35,841 nucleotides of DNA from the NCBI GenBank assembly GCA_000770645.1, contig JQID01000059.1, positions 1-35,841 of the forward strand. Reading direction: 5' to 3'. Shown piece by piece: positions 2,449 through 21,832 of the stretch (its first letter is position 1; each line of letters starts with the position of its first letter). This DNA comes from Desulfosporosinus sp. Tol-M (GTDB lineage: Bacteria; Bacillota; Desulfitobacteriia; Desulfitobacteriales; Desulfitobacteriaceae). The position numbers and the translations under genes were made by a program. The notes beneath the pieces were generated by a model. The model worked only from the letters and a program-made list of their open reading frames with translations. It did not search any database and was not told where the DNA came from.

Positions 2449-3351
2449 TTACTCATCGGAATTTCTGACTGTTGAAGCGAGGCTAGTTAAACCAGACACT
2501 GCCCCTAGACCCATTGTCTCAACTATGGAAGAAGGGACAATGACCATCGCGCCTTTTTCTTTGATTCCCTCATACAAGATATTCATTGCCCGTAGATGCA
2601 AAGCAACAGGATTATTCTCATAAGATTTAGCAGCTTCAGCGAATTTATCAGCAATTTCCGTCTCAGCAGTTCCCAAGATTATTCTGGCCCGCCGTTCGCG
2701 TTCTGCTTGAGCCTCTCGGCTCATTGCGTCTTGTAAGCCTGTGGGCAAAACGACATCCCGAATCTCTACAGCATTGACATTAACACCCCATGGTTCTGTT
2801 CGCATGTCAATTACCTCTTTTAGTTCCCGATCGATTCTTTCCCGGTCCGAAAGCATCTCAGCTAAATTTGTTCGACCGATAACATCCCTTAAAGCCGTTT
2901 GGGCAGCCCAAAACACGGCGTCCTTATAATCCGCTACTTCCAGAGAAGCTTTCTTAGCATCCATAACTGTCCAAAATAACACAGCATCGACGTCAACAGG
3001 TACAGTATCTTTTGTCAAAGTTTGTTCAGCTTTAAAAGTCGTAGTTATCGTACGGTGGTCTATCCAGTTACTTACAGCATCTATTATTGGAATTACAAAG
3101 AACAAACCTGGACCGGCTAAGTGGCTAAACTTACCGAGACGGAGAACGACAGCTTTCTCCCACTGATCGGCAACTTTCACGCCGTAACCAACTAAAATTG
3201 CTGAGAAAAAACCAATTGCTATCCAGCCATACCATCCTGTTATAAACCAAATTAAGCCACTGGCAAGCAGAATGATAAGAGCCAGGAATATGGATACCGG
3301 ACTAGGTCCTCGAAAAGCAAAATTAGGCAGGTTAACATTTGGATTATGCAT
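2449..3351 (-). CDS. Slipin family SPFH/Band 7 membrane protein
   Basis: The protein is a stomatin/prohibitin-like scaffold of 300 residues. The N-terminus has two hydrophobic segments (about residues 18-38 and 42-60). The SPFH (Band 7) domain starts at about 65 (QWEKAVVLRLGKF) and runs to about 245. The diagnostic slipin piece LQDAMSREAQAERERRARII (about 207-226) is present, followed by an alanine/glutamate-rich coiled coil and a hydrophobic C-terminal tail. Slipins oligomerise in the membrane and often pair with an NfeD-type protease partner, but no nfeD gene is next to this one. The start codon is an ATG at 3351 and the gene is convergent with the LapA-like gene. Family call is firm; function in this organism is unknown. 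Confidence 0.9.
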   Translation of the reverse strand: MHNPNVNLPNFAFRGPSPVSIFLALIILLASGLIWFITGWYGWIAIGFFSAILVGYGVKVADQWEKAVVLRLGKFSHLAGPGLFFVIPIIDAVSNWIDHRTITTTFKAEQTLTKDTVPVDVDAVLFWTVMDAKKASLEVADYKDAVFWAAQTALRDVIGRTNLAEMLSDRERIDRELKEVIDMRTEPWGVNVNAVEIRDVVLPTGLQDAMSREAQAERERRARIILGTAETEIADKFAEAAKSYENNPVALHLRAMNILYEGIKEKGAMVIVPSSIVETMGLGAVSGLTSLASTVRNSDE

Positions 3352-3595
3352 TTGAACAGCACCTCACAATTTAATATGGGTTAGAATCCGAAACGATAAT
3401 TGTATGTAAATAATGTAATAAATGTAATATAATGGAATATAGGCTATTACTATTATATGTAATATACTATTAAATGAAATATTTTTCTACTAGCATCGTG
3501 CAAAACGATTGTATTTATACGTAGTGGTCCCGTGGTTTACAAAGGTATGGTTCGAAAGATAGTGAAAAATTGAAGAGAAGGGAGGAGTGTCAACA

Positions 3596-3824
3596 TTGAA
3601 CAAATATACGCTTATTGGAAAAGAAGTAGTTTTATTGATAATTGATATCCAAGACAGATTAGGGTGATGCGGTGTGTTCACGAACCAAGGAAAATTACCG
3701 GAACGGGTTATCTCTTATGTCGTCTATGGGAGCAGTAGTAACTAATACAGAAACAGTATTCTTTGATTTATTGAAGCAAGCGGATACACCTCTGTTCAGG
3801 GAACTCTCCAAACTAATAAAATAG
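3596..3824 (+). pseudogene. Collapsed isochorismatase-family hydrolase
   Basis: A GGGAGGAG ribosome site precedes a TTG start (3596) for a short peptide containing KEVVLLIIDIQDRLG, the conserved N-terminal strand of the cysteine-hydrolase/isochorismatase family with its catalytic Asp. It stops at 3665-3667. In another frame, 3717-3824 encodes MGAVVTNTETVFFDLL followed by QADTPLFRELSKLIK, which resembles the C-terminal end of the same family. About 100 residues of the middle, including the catalytic cysteine region, are missing. This is a gene that lost its core by deletion and shifted frame. The pieces are too short to name a substrate. Confidence 0.65.
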
Positions 3825-3855
3825 GGCTGATAGCCCCATAGGTTCTTCTCTACTC

Positions 3856-3878
3856 CCCCTCCTTGTGAGGGGATTTCT
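3856..3878. repeat. Dispersed 23-nt hairpin repeat, copy 1
   Basis: CCCCTC-CTTGT-GAGGGG (3856-3872) plus ATTTCT forms a perfect 6-bp hairpin. The same 23 bases recur exactly at 16298-16320. Here it follows the isochorismatase remnant. Confidence 0.6.
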
Positions 3879-3893
3879 GAGCCAAATAAAAAA

Positions 3894-3911
3894 GTCGCTA
3901 TCACTAGCGAC
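3894..3911 (-). terminator. Hairpin with T-tract on the minus strand
   Basis: GTCGCTA (3894-3900) and TAGCGAC (3905-3911) form a 7-bp stem with a TCAC loop. On the minus strand it is followed by TTTTTTATTT. It would stop transcripts arriving from the radical SAM genes and the repeat tract to the right. Confidence 0.55.
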
Positions 3912-3929
3912 CTTTAAGGATATGTATAA

Positions 3930-4380
3930 GAGCACGCAATGATCTACCTGACACCAATATAGATCGTTGATTACCTAACTAGGATCTTCCGACCATAATC
4001 AAGCAGGTTACCACCTATACTAATGATTCGTTCAACCTTGCAAGATATCTACCCAGCTATATAAAACCTTTCGGCTCGATATAACCGACTTCTTACCCAT
4101 GCATATATTTTCCAACATATGATTGAGTATGAAAATTCCAACACCCTGCAAAATCTTAGCTCGATCCATTATGATAAGTTGGAACCTCAAGGCAATCGAA
4201 AATGGACTGCAGAAAAGCTTTTCCCCACCATAAAAGATCTTCCCTCCGACTATATACAAGCGTTCTACCACCTGTATATACTCTTTGGCCGACCCATATA
4301 CACCCCTAATGAGCATATATAAATCTTGGCTCAACCATTACGTACCCTTATGATCTTATATTGATCTTTTGAGCTCTATA
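3930..4380. repeat. Degenerate repeat tract, apparently non-coding
   Basis: This tract downstream of the radical SAM genes contains an irregularly spaced core of the form (A/G)ATCTT-N(2-6)-C(G/A)ACC followed by TATA-rich sequence. Examples start near 3983 (GATCTTCCGACCATAAT), 4043 (AGATATCTACCC), 4151 (AAATCTTAGCTCGATCCATT), 4236 (GATCTTCCCTCCGACTATAT), 4281 (CTCTTTGGCCGACCCATATA) and 4321 (AAATCTTGGCTCAACCATTA). Spacings range from 40 to about 107 bases. Read on the minus strand, the units give recurring GGTCG...AAGATCTT and peptides such as VGGKIF and RAKIL in shifting frames, so a decayed repetitive coding sequence is also possible. A 100-codon minus-strand frame (4032-4334) spans part of it but has no convincing start. 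Confidence 0.4.
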
Positions 4381-4512
4381 TTATGCTGGCAATTATTGGA
4401 GTTTATTTTTGTGTTCTGTCATCTGTCATTATCCAGCAAGGTCAATCACTTAACTTAAAAAAATATGGTAGCAAATGGAAAAAATGCTACAATCTAGCTA
4501 AAGAGCATGTAA

Positions 4513-5628
4513 CTAATCCTTGCCCAGGCGTGGTTCATACCAGCATTGCGGATCCGACGCCATAATGTCTCCGGTAAGGCCGTAGGCCATTCGTCTACAG
4601 CCTCCGCAGACGAATCGCAACTCGCACCTGCCACACTTGCCTTTTAATTTATCCCTGTCTCGCAGTAAATTTATCAGTTCCGAGTTGGACCATAGATCAC
4701 TGAGTTTGCTTTCTCTCAAATTACCGATAGACATTTCGGGAGCTATGACATCCCCGACATATACCTGACCGTCAGCGCCAATAATATATTGCCAAATACC
4801 GGTAACACATCCGGCCGGTGAATCCAGATAGGTCCCAATCCGTTCGGGATCTATGGAAATATTCAAAGCAGCTTCATCTTCACTTATTTGATAACGATCC
4901 TCAAAAAGCACCCTGCTTGCGCCATAGATTTTCTTTTGTTCAACTAAGATCCTTTGCCATTCCCTGGTTTGTTCTTTGGATAACATTAGATTCTTTGTAG
5001 CCTCCCCTCTTCCGATAGGGAGAAGTTGTACCATTCCCACATCCACACCCAACTCAACGCCCAGCTTTGTGAGTTCTCGAATTTCATCGAAATTCAGTTT
5101 AGAAATAGTAGCTATCAGCCAGATACTCGGGAATTCTTCTTCAACACAGTTCTTTAAAGCCTGGATACATTTTTCAAAAGTTCCTTTTCCGCGGTTCCAA
5201 TCATGACTATCCTTTAGTCCGTCGACACTGATTTTAATCTGAGAAAATCCGGCGCTTGCCAAGGCCCGTACATAATGCTTATCAGCTAATAATTGACCAT
5301 TAGTATTTAGGGATGCCATCATGCCATGACGATTTACCGCATAATTTGCCAGTTCTAATAAATCCTTCCTTGAGCTGGGTTCCCCTCCTCCAAAGACGAT
5401 AGCCTCGGTCCCGGCTTCAGCGATGTTATCTATTACTTTCAAGGCTTCAGTGGTGGAAAGCTCATTTTCCAAAGGGAAATGGGACCCGGCAAAACAGAAT
5501 TTACATCTTAGGTTGCACGCTTCCGTTGTACTAAACCAGCACATCATTGGTTTAGCTTGCTTAACCATTTCATGATATTTTTTTCTGGTAATTTCCAAAA
5601 ACTCCGCTGGGGACAGGCCGTTTATCAT
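4513..5628 (-). CDS. Radical SAM/SPASM domain protein
   Basis: This cytosolic Fe-S enzyme of 371 residues has a radical SAM core with CNLRCKFC (Cys 38, 42, 45) binding the SAM-ligating [4Fe-4S] cluster, then a GGGEP strand (about 80-84). The C-terminal SPASM region has CGRCELRFVCGGCR and a final DPQC, which normally hold auxiliary Fe-S clusters. The ending CGGCRRMAYGLTGD resembles that of NirJ/AhbC/AhbD heme-modifying enzymes, but no other heme-synthesis gene is nearby, so the substrate stays open (peptide maturation is another SPASM role). The ATG at 5628 has GGGAGGAATTGTT immediately upstream. It lies 119 bases downstream of the ferredoxin-radical SAM fusion on the same strand and may be co-transcribed with it. 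Confidence 0.85.
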   Translation of the reverse strand: MINGLSPAEFLEITRKKYHEMVKQAKPMMCWFSTTEACNLRCKFCFAGSHFPLENELSTTEALKVIDNIAEAGTEAIVFGGGEPSSRKDLLELANYAVNRHGMMASLNTNGQLLADKHYVRALASAGFSQIKISVDGLKDSHDWNRGKGTFEKCIQALKNCVEEEFPSIWLIATISKLNFDEIRELTKLGVELGVDVGMVQLLPIGRGEATKNLMLSKEQTREWQRILVEQKKIYGASRVLFEDRYQISEDEAALNISIDPERIGTYLDSPAGCVTGIWQYIIGADGQVYVGDVIAPEMSIGNLRESKLSDLWSNSELINLLRDRDKLKGKCGRCELRFVCGGCRRMAYGLTGDIMASDPQCWYEPRLGKD

Positions 5629-5747: not shown

Positions 5748-6986
5748 TTATGGTCCAAAGAATCCGGCCGATGTTTGACAGGTGACATATTCCAAGCCCA
5801 TACCCTTTAAAAGTTTCCAGACATCAAGCATTTGTCCCGGTGATGGTTTTTTAAGATCCAGACGCCTGAATTCCGGTCTGTAATCAAGAAGGCAAACCTG
5901 TACGGAGGGGTCGATTGCTAAAAGGCGGGATGCTATTTCCTGGACTTCCTCGATAGTGATGAGTGAATTATTATACACTATACCAATGCCAATAAAGATC
6001 CTGTCCCGGTAGTGCTCCAGCAGATACTCAACACTGCTCCAGGTTTGTTGTAATAACCGACGGGTAAGATCTGATGAACTTAAACCTGATATTTTAGCAA
6101 AGGTTTCCAAGCGTGCGGCTTTAATATCCAGCCCGATATCTGTCATCCCGGCGGCAACAAGTTGATCTATATAATCCGTTGTTAACATAGCGGTGCTGGT
6201 GTCTATATGGAGGTGTACTTCCGGAGGGCAGAGTTTACGTAAATTTTCAAGCAGTTCAATTAACCAGCGGTTATTTAAAGTACACTCTCCGCCGGATAAT
6301 GTAATCCGTTCCACATGATAGGCTTGCCTTTTGGATTCAAGTATCTTGGCCGTTTGCTCCGGCGTAAGCGGAGTACCCCTTGAGGCGTATGTGTATGGCC
6401 AGTTTTGGCATGAAGGGCAACGTAAAATACAACCCTGGGTAAAGGCAACAATTTCAGTATAGCGGGGTGTGGCAGCATATAACGACTTTTTTTTCACCCA
6501 GTGAGGTGTACCTACTCCCCCAACTGTGTGGGGTTCAAATGACGCTACCATTCGCAGGGGAGGGTGTTCCTCAATAGCCTCAATCCCGGTATCTATGCTC
6601 ATTCCATTACGTATTGGCGTAACGCACGATGGTTTTAACTCACCATCCACTAATACGGCGCAACTCCAACAACCTCCTGTGCGGCACGGAGCATGGACAT
6701 GTCCTTCCCCGTGAAAATGTGAAATGGTATAGCCGGCCTTTTCCAGGGCCTTCAGGATTGTTATCTGTTCATTAAATTCGTAATGCTTTTTATCAATAAT
6801 AATGGTAATTATTTTTTCACGGACGCGTTCCGATTTCAGGTAACGGGCATAGCCGGGGCAGGCTTCAACGCATGCACCGCATCCTGTACATTCTTCAGGA
6901 TTGTCAAGGCAGCTAAGATATTTATGGCAAAAACCACAGTTCCGGCAGAGTTCTTTTTTTATTTTGGATATTTCTTTTATTATCAA
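5748..6986 (-). CDS. 2[4Fe-4S]-[2Fe-2S]-radical SAM fusion protein
   Basis: This 412-residue protein combines three redox modules. Residues 14-43 hold eight cysteines: an atypical first set CRNCGFCHKYLSC and a canonical CTGCGACVEACP. Residues about 60-140 form a plant-type or NuoG-like [2Fe-2S] domain with Cys 101, 106, 109 and 121 (CRTGGCWSCAVLVDG). From about 178 the radical SAM domain begins, with CILRCPSC (Cys 186, 190, 193) and SGGEC, resembling glycyl-radical-enzyme activases and AmmeMemoRadiSam proteins. A maximum of four Fe-S clusters could form an internal electron wire to SAM. No glycyl radical enzyme is in the window, so the target is unknown. The start is a TTG at 6986 behind GAGAGG. 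It is likely the first gene of a two-gene unit with the SPASM protein. Confidence 0.8.
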   Translation of the reverse strand: MIIKEISKIKKELCRNCGFCHKYLSCLDNPEECTGCGACVEACPGYARYLKSERVREKIITIIIDKKHYEFNEQITILKALEKAGYTISHFHGEGHVHAPCRTGGCWSCAVLVDGELKPSCVTPIRNGMSIDTGIEAIEEHPPLRMVASFEPHTVGGVGTPHWVKKKSLYAATPRYTEIVAFTQGCILRCPSCQNWPYTYASRGTPLTPEQTAKILESKRQAYHVERITLSGGECTLNNRWLIELLENLRKLCPPEVHLHIDTSTAMLTTDYIDQLVAAGMTDIGLDIKAARLETFAKISGLSSSDLTRRLLQQTWSSVEYLLEHYRDRIFIGIGIVYNNSLITIEEVQEIASRLLAIDPSVQVCLLDYRPEFRRLDLKKPSPGQMLDVWKLLKGMGLEYVTCQTSAGFFGP

Positions 6987-7407
6987 TGGGAATACCTCTC
7001 AGTAGCTGTATTGGTAAAACCGCTTGCAACACTTCCGGGTGAACAGCTTACTTTATTATCTAACTCATTATATAATATATTGGGAATTTTACATATGTAT
7101 GTTTACATGAAATTACGCTAATCCGGTCATTTGCAAAGTTAAGGCTACACTGTAAAGCAGAGATATACAATTTGCCCGGAAAGAAAAGGTAAGGTAGTTT
7201 TCATACCGCGCATGAAAAAATCGACAGATAAAGAACGAAACTGAAATTATTTTGTTTAATAAACAAAAAAGCGGTAAAAGATGATAGAATAAAGTTGAAT
7301 AAAATCTAAATATGCTACCCTGGACAGGGCTGTGGAGACAGCAGTTCTCTTTCAAAGCGATAAAATATATCAGTTAAAACTTATCAAGGGCTAGGGGTGT
7401 AGTTGCA
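6987..7407. other. Divergent intergenic region (radical SAM / PurF-like)
   Basis: I see no gene in these 421 bases. They must hold the promoters of the leftward radical SAM unit and the rightward PurF-like gene. Near 7317-7341 two small adjacent hairpins are visible (CCCT-GGAC-AGGG and GCTGT-GGAG-ACAGC) in the PurF-like leader. They do not match a purine riboswitch that I can recognise. Confidence 0.4.
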
Positions 7408-9679: not shown

Positions 9680-10495
9680 TTACTTTTCTTGCAAGAATTC
9701 TTGGACGTAGATATTTCCCGCAATCCCTATGCCAACATGAGTGAAACGAGGATCCAGAATATTTGCTCTGTGGCCCGGGCTTTGCATGAATCCTGCCATT
9801 GCGCTCTCAACAGACTGGTTACGGGCGATATTTTCCCCAGCCCAGCCAACAGTAAGCCCCACTTGTTGCATCATGGCCCATGGGCTTCCGTAAGTGGGAG
9901 AGGTATGACTGAAGTAATTGTTTATTATCATGTCGTTGGCTTTGGCGCGTCCAACTGCGGCTAGCCGAAGATCTAATTTGAGTGGATTTACACCCGCAGC
10001 AATACGTTCCTGATTAATCATGTCGATCATCTTTTGCTCATTGGCCGTTATTTCTGTCAAAGATGGAATAACGGGGAGCGTAGTGGTTGCAGTGGTTGTG
10101 GTGGTTGTAGTGGTTGGTATGGCGGAAGAAGTAGTAGTTACGGGTGAAGTAACCGTTACCGGGATGGCAGTGGGCTGTGTAACAATATTTTTTAAGGAAA
10201 TTACATTTCCGCTGCCGGTAGGCTGGCCGATCTTGACCGATTGAGTTTGCGTGGGTGTTGAGGTTTGAACATATGTAGTGATTGGTGTCGTAACAGTGGT
10301 TTGGGTTGCCGGAGTAGAAGTTGTAGGAACGGGAGTGACTTGTGTTGTGACGGGAACGTTAGTCTTAAGAGTAACAACAGAACCTGATAAGGTTTGATGT
10401 GCGCCTATTTTAATGGCGGCTTGTACCGGTAAGGTAACAGCGGTTATCAGGACAATGGTCTGTACTCCGATTAAAAACCCGAATATTTTCTTCAC
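9680..10495 (-). CDS. Secreted CAP-domain (SCP/PR1, YkwD-like) protein
   Basis: The 271-residue precursor has a signal peptide (residues 1-27, KK then hydrophobic core, ending VQA). The mature part carries two related short motifs, IKIGAHQTLSGSVVTLK (about 28-44) and VKIGQPTGSGNVISLK (about 87-102), separated by Thr/Pro-rich linkers with a long threonine run. The CAP domain occupies about 150-271, with NQERIAAGVNPLK, the putative active-site His in NNYFSHTSP, Glu in AGENIA and the final SPGHRANILDPRFTHVGIG. YkwD-type CAP proteins are common in spore formers; their activity is unresolved. The start is a GTG at 10495 behind GAGGAGG. The threonine-rich linker creates long shadow frames on the other strand that are not genes. 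Confidence 0.9.
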   Translation of the reverse strand: MKKIFGFLIGVQTIVLITAVTLPVQAAIKIGAHQTLSGSVVTLKTNVPVTTQVTPVPTTSTPATQTTVTTPITTYVQTSTPTQTQSVKIGQPTGSGNVISLKNIVTQPTAIPVTVTSPVTTTSSAIPTTTTTTTTATTTLPVIPSLTEITANEQKMIDMINQERIAAGVNPLKLDLRLAAVGRAKANDMIINNYFSHTSPTYGSPWAMMQQVGLTVGWAGENIARNQSVESAMAGFMQSPGHRANILDPRFTHVGIGIAGNIYVQEFLQEK

Positions 10496-10531
10496 AAATA
10501 TTCCTCCTCATGATAATTTAGGAAAAGCTTT

Positions 10532-10565
10532 GAGACAACAGTAGTATAACATAACAAGTTGTCTC
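10532..10565 (-). promoter_or_regulatory. Extended -10 promoter inside an inverted repeat, CAP gene
   Basis: GAGACAAC (10532-10539) and GTTGTCTC (10558-10565) form a perfect inverted repeat 18 bases apart. On the minus strand the spacer contains TGTTATACT, an extended -10 (TG-N-TATACT), about 45 bases upstream of the CAP-gene start. The layout suggests a dimeric regulator occluding the promoter. Confidence 0.5.
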
Positions 10566-10672
10566 TTAATATCGGTAATTAATTACAGTTGGGAATCAGT
10601 AATCTCTCTGGCTGTGTCAAGGGGCTTCTCTTGGGCGAGCACCTAAAACTAGTGCAAATAGAAGACATAACG

Positions 10673-10703
10673 AAAACCCGCTAAAATAGAAATAGCGGGT
10701 TTT
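10673..10703 (-). terminator. Bidirectional-looking terminator after the DUF456 gene
   Basis: AAAACCCGCTA (10673-10683) and TAGCGGGTTTT (10693-10703) are perfect 11-bp arms around AAATAGAAA. It lies just past the DUF456 stop. Confidence 0.8.
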
Positions 10704-10716
10704 CTACGTAAGCAAC

Positions 10717-11193
10717 TTAAATCTTGATAAAGAAATAGATAATCATGATGATTTCAATACCTAACTTTAAAATGGTACCGCCGATAAAACCGATTAGAGT
10801 ACCAATACCGACCCGGATCGCCTGGTTCAAGTCGGGGCTGTTAATAAATTCTGCTATTACAGCACCCAGGAAGGGACCGATGATAACTCCCAGCGGTCCG
10901 AAAAAGAGCAGGCCTAAGAATGTACCGATGACTGCGCCCCAGACAGCCTGTCTACTGCCTTTGAACTGGCGGGTTCCGGCAGCAGAAGCCAGAAAATCAA
11001 TTGCTAAAATCAAAACCGAGATTAAAGCCTGGATGAGAAAAAAGTTGGTGTCCAGGGTTGAAAAGTGCGTCATAACCCCATAAAGTAACATGCCGCCGTA
11101 GATGAGGATGGCACCGGGTAAAACAGGCAGGACGGTTCCCAGAAGCCCCAATACAAACAAAACCAGAGCCAGGATTAAAGCAGTTGTCATCAT
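10717..11193 (-). CDS. DUF456 family membrane protein
   Basis: A very hydrophobic protein of about 158 residues with four to five membrane segments and the family pattern GLLGTVLPVLPGAILIYGG near the N-terminus, glycine-rich VGA-type helices (WGAVIGTFLGLLFFGPLG, GPFLGAVIAEF) and a final transmembrane helix. DUF456 proteins have no assigned function. An open frame extends to 11226, but the AAAGGG ribosome site lies inside that extension, 9 bases upstream of an ATG at 11193, so I place the start there (an adjacent ATG at 11190 is equally possible). It is flanked on both sides by strong terminators and is therefore monocistronic. Confidence 0.85.
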   Translation of the reverse strand: MMTTALILALVLFVLGLLGTVLPVLPGAILIYGGMLLYGVMTHFSTLDTNFFLIQALISVLILAIDFLASAAGTRQFKGSRQAVWGAVIGTFLGLLFFGPLGVIIGPFLGAVIAEFINSPDLNQAIRVGIGTLIGFIGGTILKLGIEIIMIIYFFIKI

Positions 11194-11262
11194 TATTATC
11201 ATCCCTTTCGCAAGCTCAAGGCACAAAACGGAATGAAACCGTTATAACAATATTATAACAAT

Positions 11263-13030: not shown

Positions 13031-13060
13031 GAATTGATTATGCTGAATAGAGGTAATAAT

Positions 13061-13450
13061 ATGATTCATGAAATACATCTTCAGACAAAAAGACGGGATG
13101 AAATGCTAGACATAACGGCGCAAGTTGAAGAAGTTCTGGAAAATGTTCAGGAAGGGCAAGTCGTCGTCTATTGCCCACATACTACGGCGGGGATTACAAT
13201 TAATGAAAATGCCGACCCGGATGTACAAAAAGATTTCCTTCGAAGGTTGGACGAGATATATCCATGGAATATGGCAGGAGACCGCCATTTTGAAGGTAAT
13301 TCTGCCGCTCACTTGAAAGCAAGCACGGTTGGAGCATCCCAAACCGTCATTATTCATAATGGGATATTGCTTTTAGGCCGTTGGCAGGGTATTTACTTTT
13401 GTGAATTTGACGGTCCCCGTTCGCGTACTTGTTACGTGAAAATTATCTGA
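13061..13450 (+). CDS. yjbQ: YjbQ/UPF0047 family protein
   Basis: A compact beta-rich protein of about 129 residues. It shows the UPF0047 signature [15 protein letters not shown] (about 40-54) and the ending [22 protein letters not shown]. Two conserved His/Asp-type metal-site residues are present (H in CPHTT, H in AAHLKAS). Escherichia coli YjbQ was reported to have a weak thiamine-phosphate-synthase activity in overexpression tests; the physiological role is unclear. I start at the ATG at 13061, preceded by AGAGG (13049-13053), not the upstream in-frame ATG at 13034. It probably forms a two-gene unit with the DUF89 protein 28 bases downstream. A second UPF0047 member lies at 21395-21811. 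Confidence 0.85.
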
Positions 13451-17453: not shown

Positions 17454-18133
17454 AATGTTGGCAAGATCATAAAAGGCTTTGACGTAGTGATTACCAATCC
17501 GCCCTTCGGAACGAAAAAGGAGGGGAGCGGACTACTCGTGATGACTTTGTTATAAAACATCCAACAAACAATTAATATCGTTCGCTTAGACAGAACGGAA
17601 AGTCAAGGGCTGGGGTTGTCTTGCCAGATAATGTGCTTTTTGCCGATGGTGATGGGGCTAATATTCGTGCAGACTTGATGGAGAAATGTAATCTACACAC
17701 TGTTTTGAGATTACCGACCGGGATTTTTTATGCCCAGGGCGTTAAAACCATTGTGCTGTTTTTCACCCGTGGTACAACGGATAAAGGCAACACAAAAGAA
17801 GTCTGGTTTTATGATCTGCGTACCAATATGCAGAGCTTTGGCAAGACCACCCCACTAAAGCAGGAGCATTTTGAGGACTTTTTCAAAGCCTATACCGCAG
17901 AAGACAGAAAGGCAGTAAATGACGAGCGTTTCTCTGTCTTCACCAGGAAGCAGATAAAAGAGAAAAACGACAGCCTGGATTTAGGTTTAATCAGGGATGA
18001 CAGCATTTTGGATTATGACGATTTGCAGGACCCGATAGAGAGTGGGGAAGCAGTTGTCGCTCAGTTTGAAGAAGCAGTTGATTTAATCTTGTGTGTAGTA
18101 AAAGAGCTGAAAAGCTTAAGTGGTAATAAATGA
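17454..18133 (+). pseudogene. hsdM: Fragment of type I DNA methyltransferase HsdM
   Basis: The remnant starts with GFDVVITNPPFGTKKEG, containing the NPPF catalytic motif of N6-adenine methyltransferases, then breaks frame. The frame stops at 17553, and two or three shifts follow between 17520 and 17620 (RTTRDDFVIK, SNKQLN in other frames). From a TTG at 17621 a clean 170-codon frame continues with LPDNVLFADG, LRLPTGIFYAQGVKT and WFYDLRTNMQSFGKTTPL to the end of HsdM. The N-terminal half with the SAM motif I is missing. Loss of function is certain. Confidence 0.8.
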
Positions 18134-21394: not shown

Positions 21395-21811
21395 TCATTC
21401 GCCAATGATCTTGACCAGTACACGTTTTCGGCGGCCACCGTCGAATTCTCCATAAAATATCTGCTCCCAAGGGCCAAAGTCCAGTTTCCCTTGTGTAACC
21501 GCAACCACTACTTCACGGCCCATAATCGTACGTTTTAGATGGGCATCTGCGTTGTCCTCGTAACCGTTGTGCCGATAACGGTCGTAAGGCTTTTCAGGAG
21601 CAAGGTCTTCCAACCATATTTCGAAGTCTTGGTGCAGCCCGCTTTCATCATCGTTAATGAAGACACTGGCTGTGATATGCATGGCATTGCAAAGCAGCAG
21701 TCCTTCCCGGATATTACTTTCCTCTAGGCAATTATGTATTTGGGGCGTGATATTGATATATTCTCGCCGCCTTTTCGTTTCAAACCAAAGTTCTTTTCGA
21801 TAATGTTTCAT
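21395..21811 (-). CDS. YjbQ/UPF0047 family protein, second copy
   Basis: This UPF0047 protein of 138 residues is distinct from the yjbQ product at 13061-13450. It shares [20 protein letters not shown] (equivalent to [15 protein letters not shown]) and the ending [22 protein letters not shown], with the metal-site His residues kept. An in-frame TTG at 21817 is possible, but the ATG at 21811 has GGAGG 9 bases upstream. The stop region overlaps a non-coding AT-rich stretch towards the diguanylate cyclase. Biochemical role is unknown. Confidence 0.85.
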
Positions 21812-21832
21812 TAACAATTACCTCCCGCATAT

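Follow-up and report, generated by a model that had tools for sequence, protein, structure and literature searches.

A conserved fusion of [4Fe-4S], [2Fe-2S] and radical SAM domains in Desulfosporosinus sp. Tol-M, with relatives in Bacillota and archaea

One gene of Desulfosporosinus sp. Tol-M encodes a two-[4Fe-4S] module, a [2Fe-2S] domain and a radical SAM barrel in a single chain. Sequence comparison confirms the triple fusion as real and conserved, neither a product of chance nor a one-off. Judged by the usual tests, it does not belong with the ordinary glycyl-radical activases. The tentative reading (probability about 0.45) is that the protein is a radical SAM enzyme resembling the PFL activase, is supplied through an electron relay of its own, and serves a single catabolic partner as a dedicated activase or maturase.

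Fusion gene and domains

The window, i.e. the whole stretch of DNA analysed, comprises 35,841 nucleotides of contig JQID01000059.1 (assembly GCA_000770645.1). Coordinates of the features are given in Table 1. The original prediction of two [4Fe-4S] clusters, a [2Fe-2S] domain and a radical SAM domain in one chain is borne out in reading frame, strand, length and the positions of all 15 cysteines that it named. Further cysteines are present at residues 235, 253, 365 and 403. The start codon is TTG; the putative ribosome-binding site lies 7 bases upstream. Matches in a promoter/terminator scan are no more frequent than in shuffles.

Pfam cut-offs are exceeded by Radical_SAM PF04055 (residues 182–334, 52.5 bits against a cut-off of 29.5), Fer4_12 (residues 179–259, 47.2 bits), Fer2_4 PF13510 (residues 59–133, 36.9 bits) and Fer4 PF00037 (residues 29–47, 27.5 bits). 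PF04055 together with the CX3CX2C motif places the protein in the radical SAM superfamily. None of 20,000 shuffles of the window protein reproduces the ordered cysteine pattern (two [4Fe-4S] motifs, C-x4-C-x2-C-x11-C and C-x3-C-x2-C). Compared with the 87% identical relative in genome G014, dN/dS is 0.27 over the whole gene and 0.19 in the radical SAM part. The gene is under purifying selection, stronger in the radical SAM part than over the whole gene.

Table 1. Coordinates of the fusion gene, its domains and its neighbour in the window
Feature	Position	Strand	Evidence
Fusion gene, 412 aa: 2[4Fe-4S], [2Fe-2S] and radical SAM	5748..6986	(-)	Open reading frame, Pfam, alignment
Putative ribosome-binding site AGAGGT, 5' of the TTG start at 6986	6994..6999	(-)	Read from the sequence
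Compact two-[4Fe-4S] module, residues 14–44 (C14, 17, 20, 26 / C33, 36, 39, 43)	6855..6947	(-)	Pfam Fer4 over cut-off in the second half; eight Cys invariant in 21 aligned N-termini
[2Fe-2S] domain, residues 59–133 (C101, 106, 109, 121)	6588..6812	(-)	PF13510 (3.8e-9); HydA/NuoG fold match; Cys in 32/32
Radical SAM barrel, residues 177–405 (C186, 190, 193; SGGE 231–234)	5772..6458	(-)	PF04055 (8.5e-14); PFL-AE and NifB structure matches
Partner gene, radical SAM/SPASM protein, 371 aa, 119 bp downstream of the fusion gene	4513..5628	(-)	Same order in L030, L032, L033 and L119

Two other features of the window are recorded. Positions 17621–18133 hold a fragment of an N-6 DNA methylase (HsdM-like, PF02384), apparently the remnant of a restriction-modification system. 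Positions 13034–13450 and 21395–21817 encode two related small proteins of ~140 aa, probably YjbQ/UPF0047.

Conservation, distribution and phylogeny

Thirty-two members from Bacillota and archaea were aligned. The four [2Fe-2S] cysteines and the CX3CX2C motif are retained in 32/32, both [4Fe-4S] motifs in 29/32. The 15 ligand cysteines are preserved across Bacillota and archaea in members 37–86% identical to the window protein, and all 12 cysteines of the N-terminal part are invariant in 21 aligned N-termini. The fusion therefore withstands the refutation proposed for it at the outset, that the [2Fe-2S] cysteines might not be conserved in relatives. The first cluster motif, described in the original prediction as unusual, has an invariant fourth cysteine; what varies across members is the spacing of that cysteine (x4–x5). 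Three archaeal proteins of 349–361 aa (L096 6050–7099, L097 4542–5627, L098 6234–7289) consist of the [2Fe-2S] and radical SAM domains only, without the [4Fe-4S] pair. They begin directly at the [2Fe-2S] domain. Across the 32 members, [2Fe-2S] plus radical SAM is thus the fixed core, with the [4Fe-4S] pair nearly always added.

The same domain order, sought in other genomes, occurs in Bacillota and archaea and is rare, not unique. Full-length relatives are present in 3 of 61 near-kin genomes, the window's own included, and in 4 of 398 genomes sampled across the phylum. Matches to the fusion are present in 13 of 113 genomes of the class that includes G395, and in 22 of 238 from the class that holds the archaeon G450 and the Methanoperedens loci. 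N-terminal peptide patterns recover only part of the family; genome searches recovered more. No relatives were found in plasmid records and viral contigs. Since MAGs and draft assemblies make up many of the genomes, a gene missing from one of them counts for little as evidence; contamination in the genome of the window is 8%.

In the maximum-likelihood tree, two bacterial clades with fixed partners are recovered with 100/99 support each. The window protein lies outside the clade associated with acetone activation.

Some loci depart from the usual gene structure. In L043 (UBA5766, 2831–5236) the match to the fusion frame ends near residue 118, and reverse-transcriptase-like open reading frames follow on the opposite strand, a picture that insertion of a group II intron would give. 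In L042 (UBA206, 9971–11200) the homologue is interrupted by stops and frame changes, a pseudogene or a poor assembly. At L032 9998 and L033 1678, no ATG, GTG or TTG is homologous to the TTG start of the window gene; the open frame is nevertheless conserved ahead of the following start codon, and a rare start codon may be used.

Structure models and type of the [2Fe-2S] domain

The full-length model has a mean pLDDT of 77, residues 1–56 being poor; the N-terminal 150 residues, modelled separately, reach 85. The best Foldseek match of the full model is the PFL activating enzyme (PFL-AE, 3cb8; E 2.2e-10), to which the radical SAM core is closest in profile as well as in fold. With VIA-align 2 the full model matches NifB (Z 20.8), PFL-AE 3cb8 (Z 19.8, rmsd 3.0 over 225 residues) and viperin (Z ~16), NifB and PFL-AE being about equal.

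Top Foldseek matches of the N-terminal fragment are the [2Fe-2S] domains of 9mqx, HydA1 (8a6t) and complex I, in agreement with a [2Fe-2S] ferredoxin fold. By profile and fold this domain is nearest to NuoG/HydA. Its spacing, C-x4-C-x2-C-x11-C, matches that of the Mo-hydroxylases: aldehyde oxidoreductase 1sij has a counterpart for each of the four cysteines, whereas C101 finds no partner in alignments to complex I (9iho) and HydA1 (8a6t). The original label 'NuoG-like' is thus true of the fold, not of the cysteine spacing. Fumarate reductase has this spacing as well. The N-terminal domains of HydA and NuoG resemble the fusion in the [2Fe-2S] fold and in combining a [2Fe-2S] with [4Fe-4S] modules for electron input. 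They differ in cysteine spacing and in module order, which is reversed in the fusion, where the [4Fe-4S] pair comes first.

Gene neighbourhood in the sister (acetone) lineage

The best-fitting evidence for a partner is that of the sister lineage, not that of the window lineage. A gene for a TDP-dependent acetone-activating enzyme (676–704 aa where complete) adjoins the fusion gene in nine loci (L031/L041, L040, L055, L056, L123, L124, L125, L128 and L129). Genes for HMG-CoA lyase, thiolase, acyl-CoA synthetase, carboxyltransferase or Kor (2-oxoacid:ferredoxin oxidoreductase) are nearby in most of these loci. Small proteins of 106–182 aa, encoded between or beside the fusion and TDP genes (L055 8806–9129, L056 8781–9179, L123 8257–8577, L128 10396–10944), have no Pfam match; in L056, L128 and L129 one small protein is all that separates the two genes. 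A glycyl-radical motif was sought in the TDP enzyme and in the small neighbour and was not found, so the target residue is not evident.

A published cluster of Desulfotomaculum arcticum offers a comparison. Its genes are given as 04012 carboxyltransferase, 04013 acyl-CoA synthetase, 04014 3-hydroxyacyl-CoA dehydrogenase, 04015 thiolase, 04016 hypothetical protein, 04017 'pyruvate-formate lyase-activating enzyme', 04018 TDP enzyme and 04019 HMGL; Ga0056061_04017 is reported only from acetone-grown cells, at low coverage, with the proposal that it may activate the TDP enzyme, and the TDP enzymes of D. arcticum and D. geothermicum are given as 88.76% identical (PMC8084838). L055 and L123 carry eight genes in the matching order (carboxyltransferase–ACS–HADH–thiolase–hypothetical–fusion–TDP–HMGL), and their TDP enzymes are 89% identical, which fits the published value. 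Judged by this eight-gene synteny with the cluster as there described, Ga0056061_04017 is very likely a sister-lineage member of the fusion family; like the fusion of L055, it is placed between the hypothetical protein and the TDP enzyme. The window protein differs from it in belonging to the other lineage and in having no TDP neighbour.

Gene neighbourhood in the window lineage

The window clade comprises the window protein and members from G014 (L030), UBA7919 (L032), UBA4049 (L033) and G753 (L119). A radical SAM/SPASM gene lies ~120–130 bp downstream of the fusion gene in 5/5 of its loci. The conserved partner that the original prediction proposed to look for is thus this gene in the window lineage, where it had been overlooked, and the TDP enzyme in the nine sister-lineage loci. 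The SPASM protein is AhbD/NirJ2/TIGR04053-like but stays below the family cut-offs: 195.8 against 500 for AhbD, 192.7 against 500 for NirJ2 and 191.3 against 395 for TIGR04053. The fusion gene of genome G747 (L120 5945–9281), 58% identical to that of the window, has a gene for an HdrA-like flavoprotein on its upstream side and no SPASM gene downstream.

The genome of the window, G000, encodes a benzylsuccinate-synthase-type glycyl radical enzyme on contig C26 (41620–44205, L057 5618–8206; 1499.7 bits against TutD 4pkc), with a BssD-type activase, a MoxR-type ATPase and a von-Willebrand-type protein as neighbours. Among 61 relatives a BssA-type enzyme is present only in G000 and G014, which marks the organism of the window as probably an anaerobic hydrocarbon degrader. 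Window-clade fusion, SPASM gene and BssA-type enzyme co-occur in these same 2 of 61 relatives (Fisher p 5e-4, which overstates independence, G000 and G014 being congeners). In L032, L033 and L119, three closely related MAGs, the fusion/SPASM pair faces bss genes in convergent orientation, at a distance of no more than 1 kb; BssA of L032 and L033 is 76–79% identical to that of G000. Candidate clients of the window protein are the pathway of the SPASM protein or a step of a bss-linked hydrocarbon pathway. No homologue of the TDP enzyme was found in the window genome or in the clade I and archaeal genomes searched, and the neighbourhood that marks the acetone lineage is not that of the window protein.

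Archaeal and other members have no constant partner gene. An O-methyltransferase gene lies just upstream of the fusion gene in L036 and L038. L039 provides a second case in which the fusion is paired with another radical SAM protein: there a PflX-like radical SAM gene (2566–3495) overlaps the fusion gene at its 3' end. In G014 korC overlaps the fusion gene. Kor was considered as a general electron partner and rejected: none adjoins the fusion gene of the window, and the closest korC of the window's genome lies beside a different radical SAM gene.

Proposed function

Radical SAM enzymes normally take electrons from separate flavodoxins or ferredoxins. In the fusion, the N-terminal clusters would accept electrons from a cellular donor, and the two predicted [4Fe-4S] clusters and one [2Fe-2S] cluster would pass single low-potential electrons within the same chain to the SAM-binding [4Fe-4S] cluster. 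There SAM would be cleaved reductively to yield the 5'-deoxyadenosyl radical, which would modify a partner protein, a target favoured over a small molecule. The fusion would act on one partner enzyme of an anaerobic catabolic pathway and not as a glycyl-radical activase. The window-lineage form would be paired with the radical SAM/SPASM protein and serve probable hydrocarbon degraders with benzylsuccinate-synthase-type genes; for the sister lineage, the TDP-dependent ketone-activating enzyme encoded next to the fusion is the likely client.

A small-molecule substrate (e.g. a C1 donor, a CoA-ester intermediate or a cofactor), with a relay that supports many turnovers, is possible, although on the whole doubtful. 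The nearest folds, beside PFL-AE, include NifB and viperin, whose substrates are not proteins; an electron relay is of more use to an enzyme that turns over many times than to one that activates its target once; and the archaeal members stand alone. As donors of the C1 unit added to acetone by the TDP enzyme in sulfate reducers, CO, formate, formyl-CoA and others failed in vitro (PMC7888143). However, no substrate-binding signature was identified in the fusion, its sequence profile is nearest to NrdG2 (with YjjW and PFLA also matching all 14 members scanned), and the low coverage of the D. arcticum protein suits an accessory protein more than a pathway enzyme.

Relation to glycyl-radical activases

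PFL-AE is the nearest fold by Foldseek, the fusion adjoins bss genes in three MAGs, and a PF01228 glycyl radical enzyme is present in all four window-lineage genomes searched (G000, G014, G448 and G449). These findings would suit a glycyl-radical activase after all, a second one for BssA or one for NrdD, with an unusual electron-input module; such a role is nonetheless improbable, and the original comparison of the fusion with glycyl-radical activases is not supported. The activase signature around the SAM cluster, [GV]xGx[KR]x3Fx2GCx3Cx2CxN (GPGxR...GCxxxCxxCxN), is found in 0/32 fusion members, yet both controls, the BssD-type activases of G000 and L032, match it. E178 of the window protein occupies its Lys/Arg position. 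BssD is already present.

No glycyl radical enzyme is encoded in the window, as originally noted; the same genome has the BssA-type enzyme on contig C26 and NrdD on C86. PF01228 has no match in 8 of 14 distinct fusion genomes, and NrdD was found in 11 of the 14. Genome G034 carries the fusion and matches neither PF01228 nor NrdD. It is reported as 100% complete, in 190 contigs, so the absence is not absolute.

The window protein reaches the curated cut-off of no NCBIfam model: 58.7 bits for NrdG2 (TIGR02495; cut-off 131.15, of which this is less than half), 51 for YjjW (250.2), 50.7 for PFLA (231.75), 32.5 for TIGR02494 (174.35) and 29.6 for NrdG (126.1). NrdG2 is the best NCBIfam match in 14/14 members scanned. 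No characterised family was found to include the fusion, which thus also withstands the second refutation proposed at the outset. Literature searched for a radical SAM and [2Fe-2S] fusion, or for a radical SAM accessory protein in bss clusters, yielded no paper.

The fusion shares with PFL-AE 3cb8 the radical SAM barrel and the CX3CX2C motif, and differs in the added 2[4Fe-4S] and [2Fe-2S] modules and in lacking GPGxR. NrdG2 is the best match in profile, but the score is below cut-off and the window's genome has a separate short radical SAM gene (241 aa) directly adjoining NrdD on C86. BssD and the ferredoxin-bearing activases (TIGR02494) likewise combine radical SAM and [4Fe-4S] clusters in one chain; in the BssD type, however, the [4Fe-4S] module is inside the radical SAM domain, after the SAM motif (L057 1010–2044), whereas in the fusion it is N-terminal and joined by the [2Fe-2S] domain.

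A protein of mainly redox function, in maturation or sensing, with a degenerate barrel and no radical chemistry, might be read from four Fe-S clusters predicted in 412 residues and from the varying neighbours in archaea, but is highly improbable given PF04055 over its cut-off, CX3CX2C and GGE intact in 14/14 aligned members and the lower dN/dS of the radical SAM part.

Significance

The suggestion of an activase role was already made in PMC8084838. The present analysis adds the architecture of the triple fusion and how far it is conserved, the tree, the occurrence in archaea, a separate clade linked to bss genes and the negative outcome of the glycyl-radical tests.

If the fusion is a dedicated activase or maturase with its own electron relay, four predicted clusters in conserved order in one chain make it a model for a self-wired radical SAM enzyme. 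Such an activase with a client other than a glycyl radical enzyme (the TDP ketone-formylating enzyme in the sister lineage, a hydrocarbon-breakdown enzyme in the window lineage) would be a new activation principle; this bolder form of the proposal is rather unlikely. Were it true, the need for the fusion would explain why no one has reproduced the TDP reaction in vitro. Through the sister lineage the family is linked to the open problem of acetone activation: because one fusion group adjoins an acetone-activating enzyme whose reaction is unsolved, the fusion is a testable missing factor, and together with the small neighbour it offers concrete components to add. For the window lineage, the fusion and SPASM genes are a so far unstudied pair of accessory genes in genomes that carry benzylsuccinate-synthase genes.
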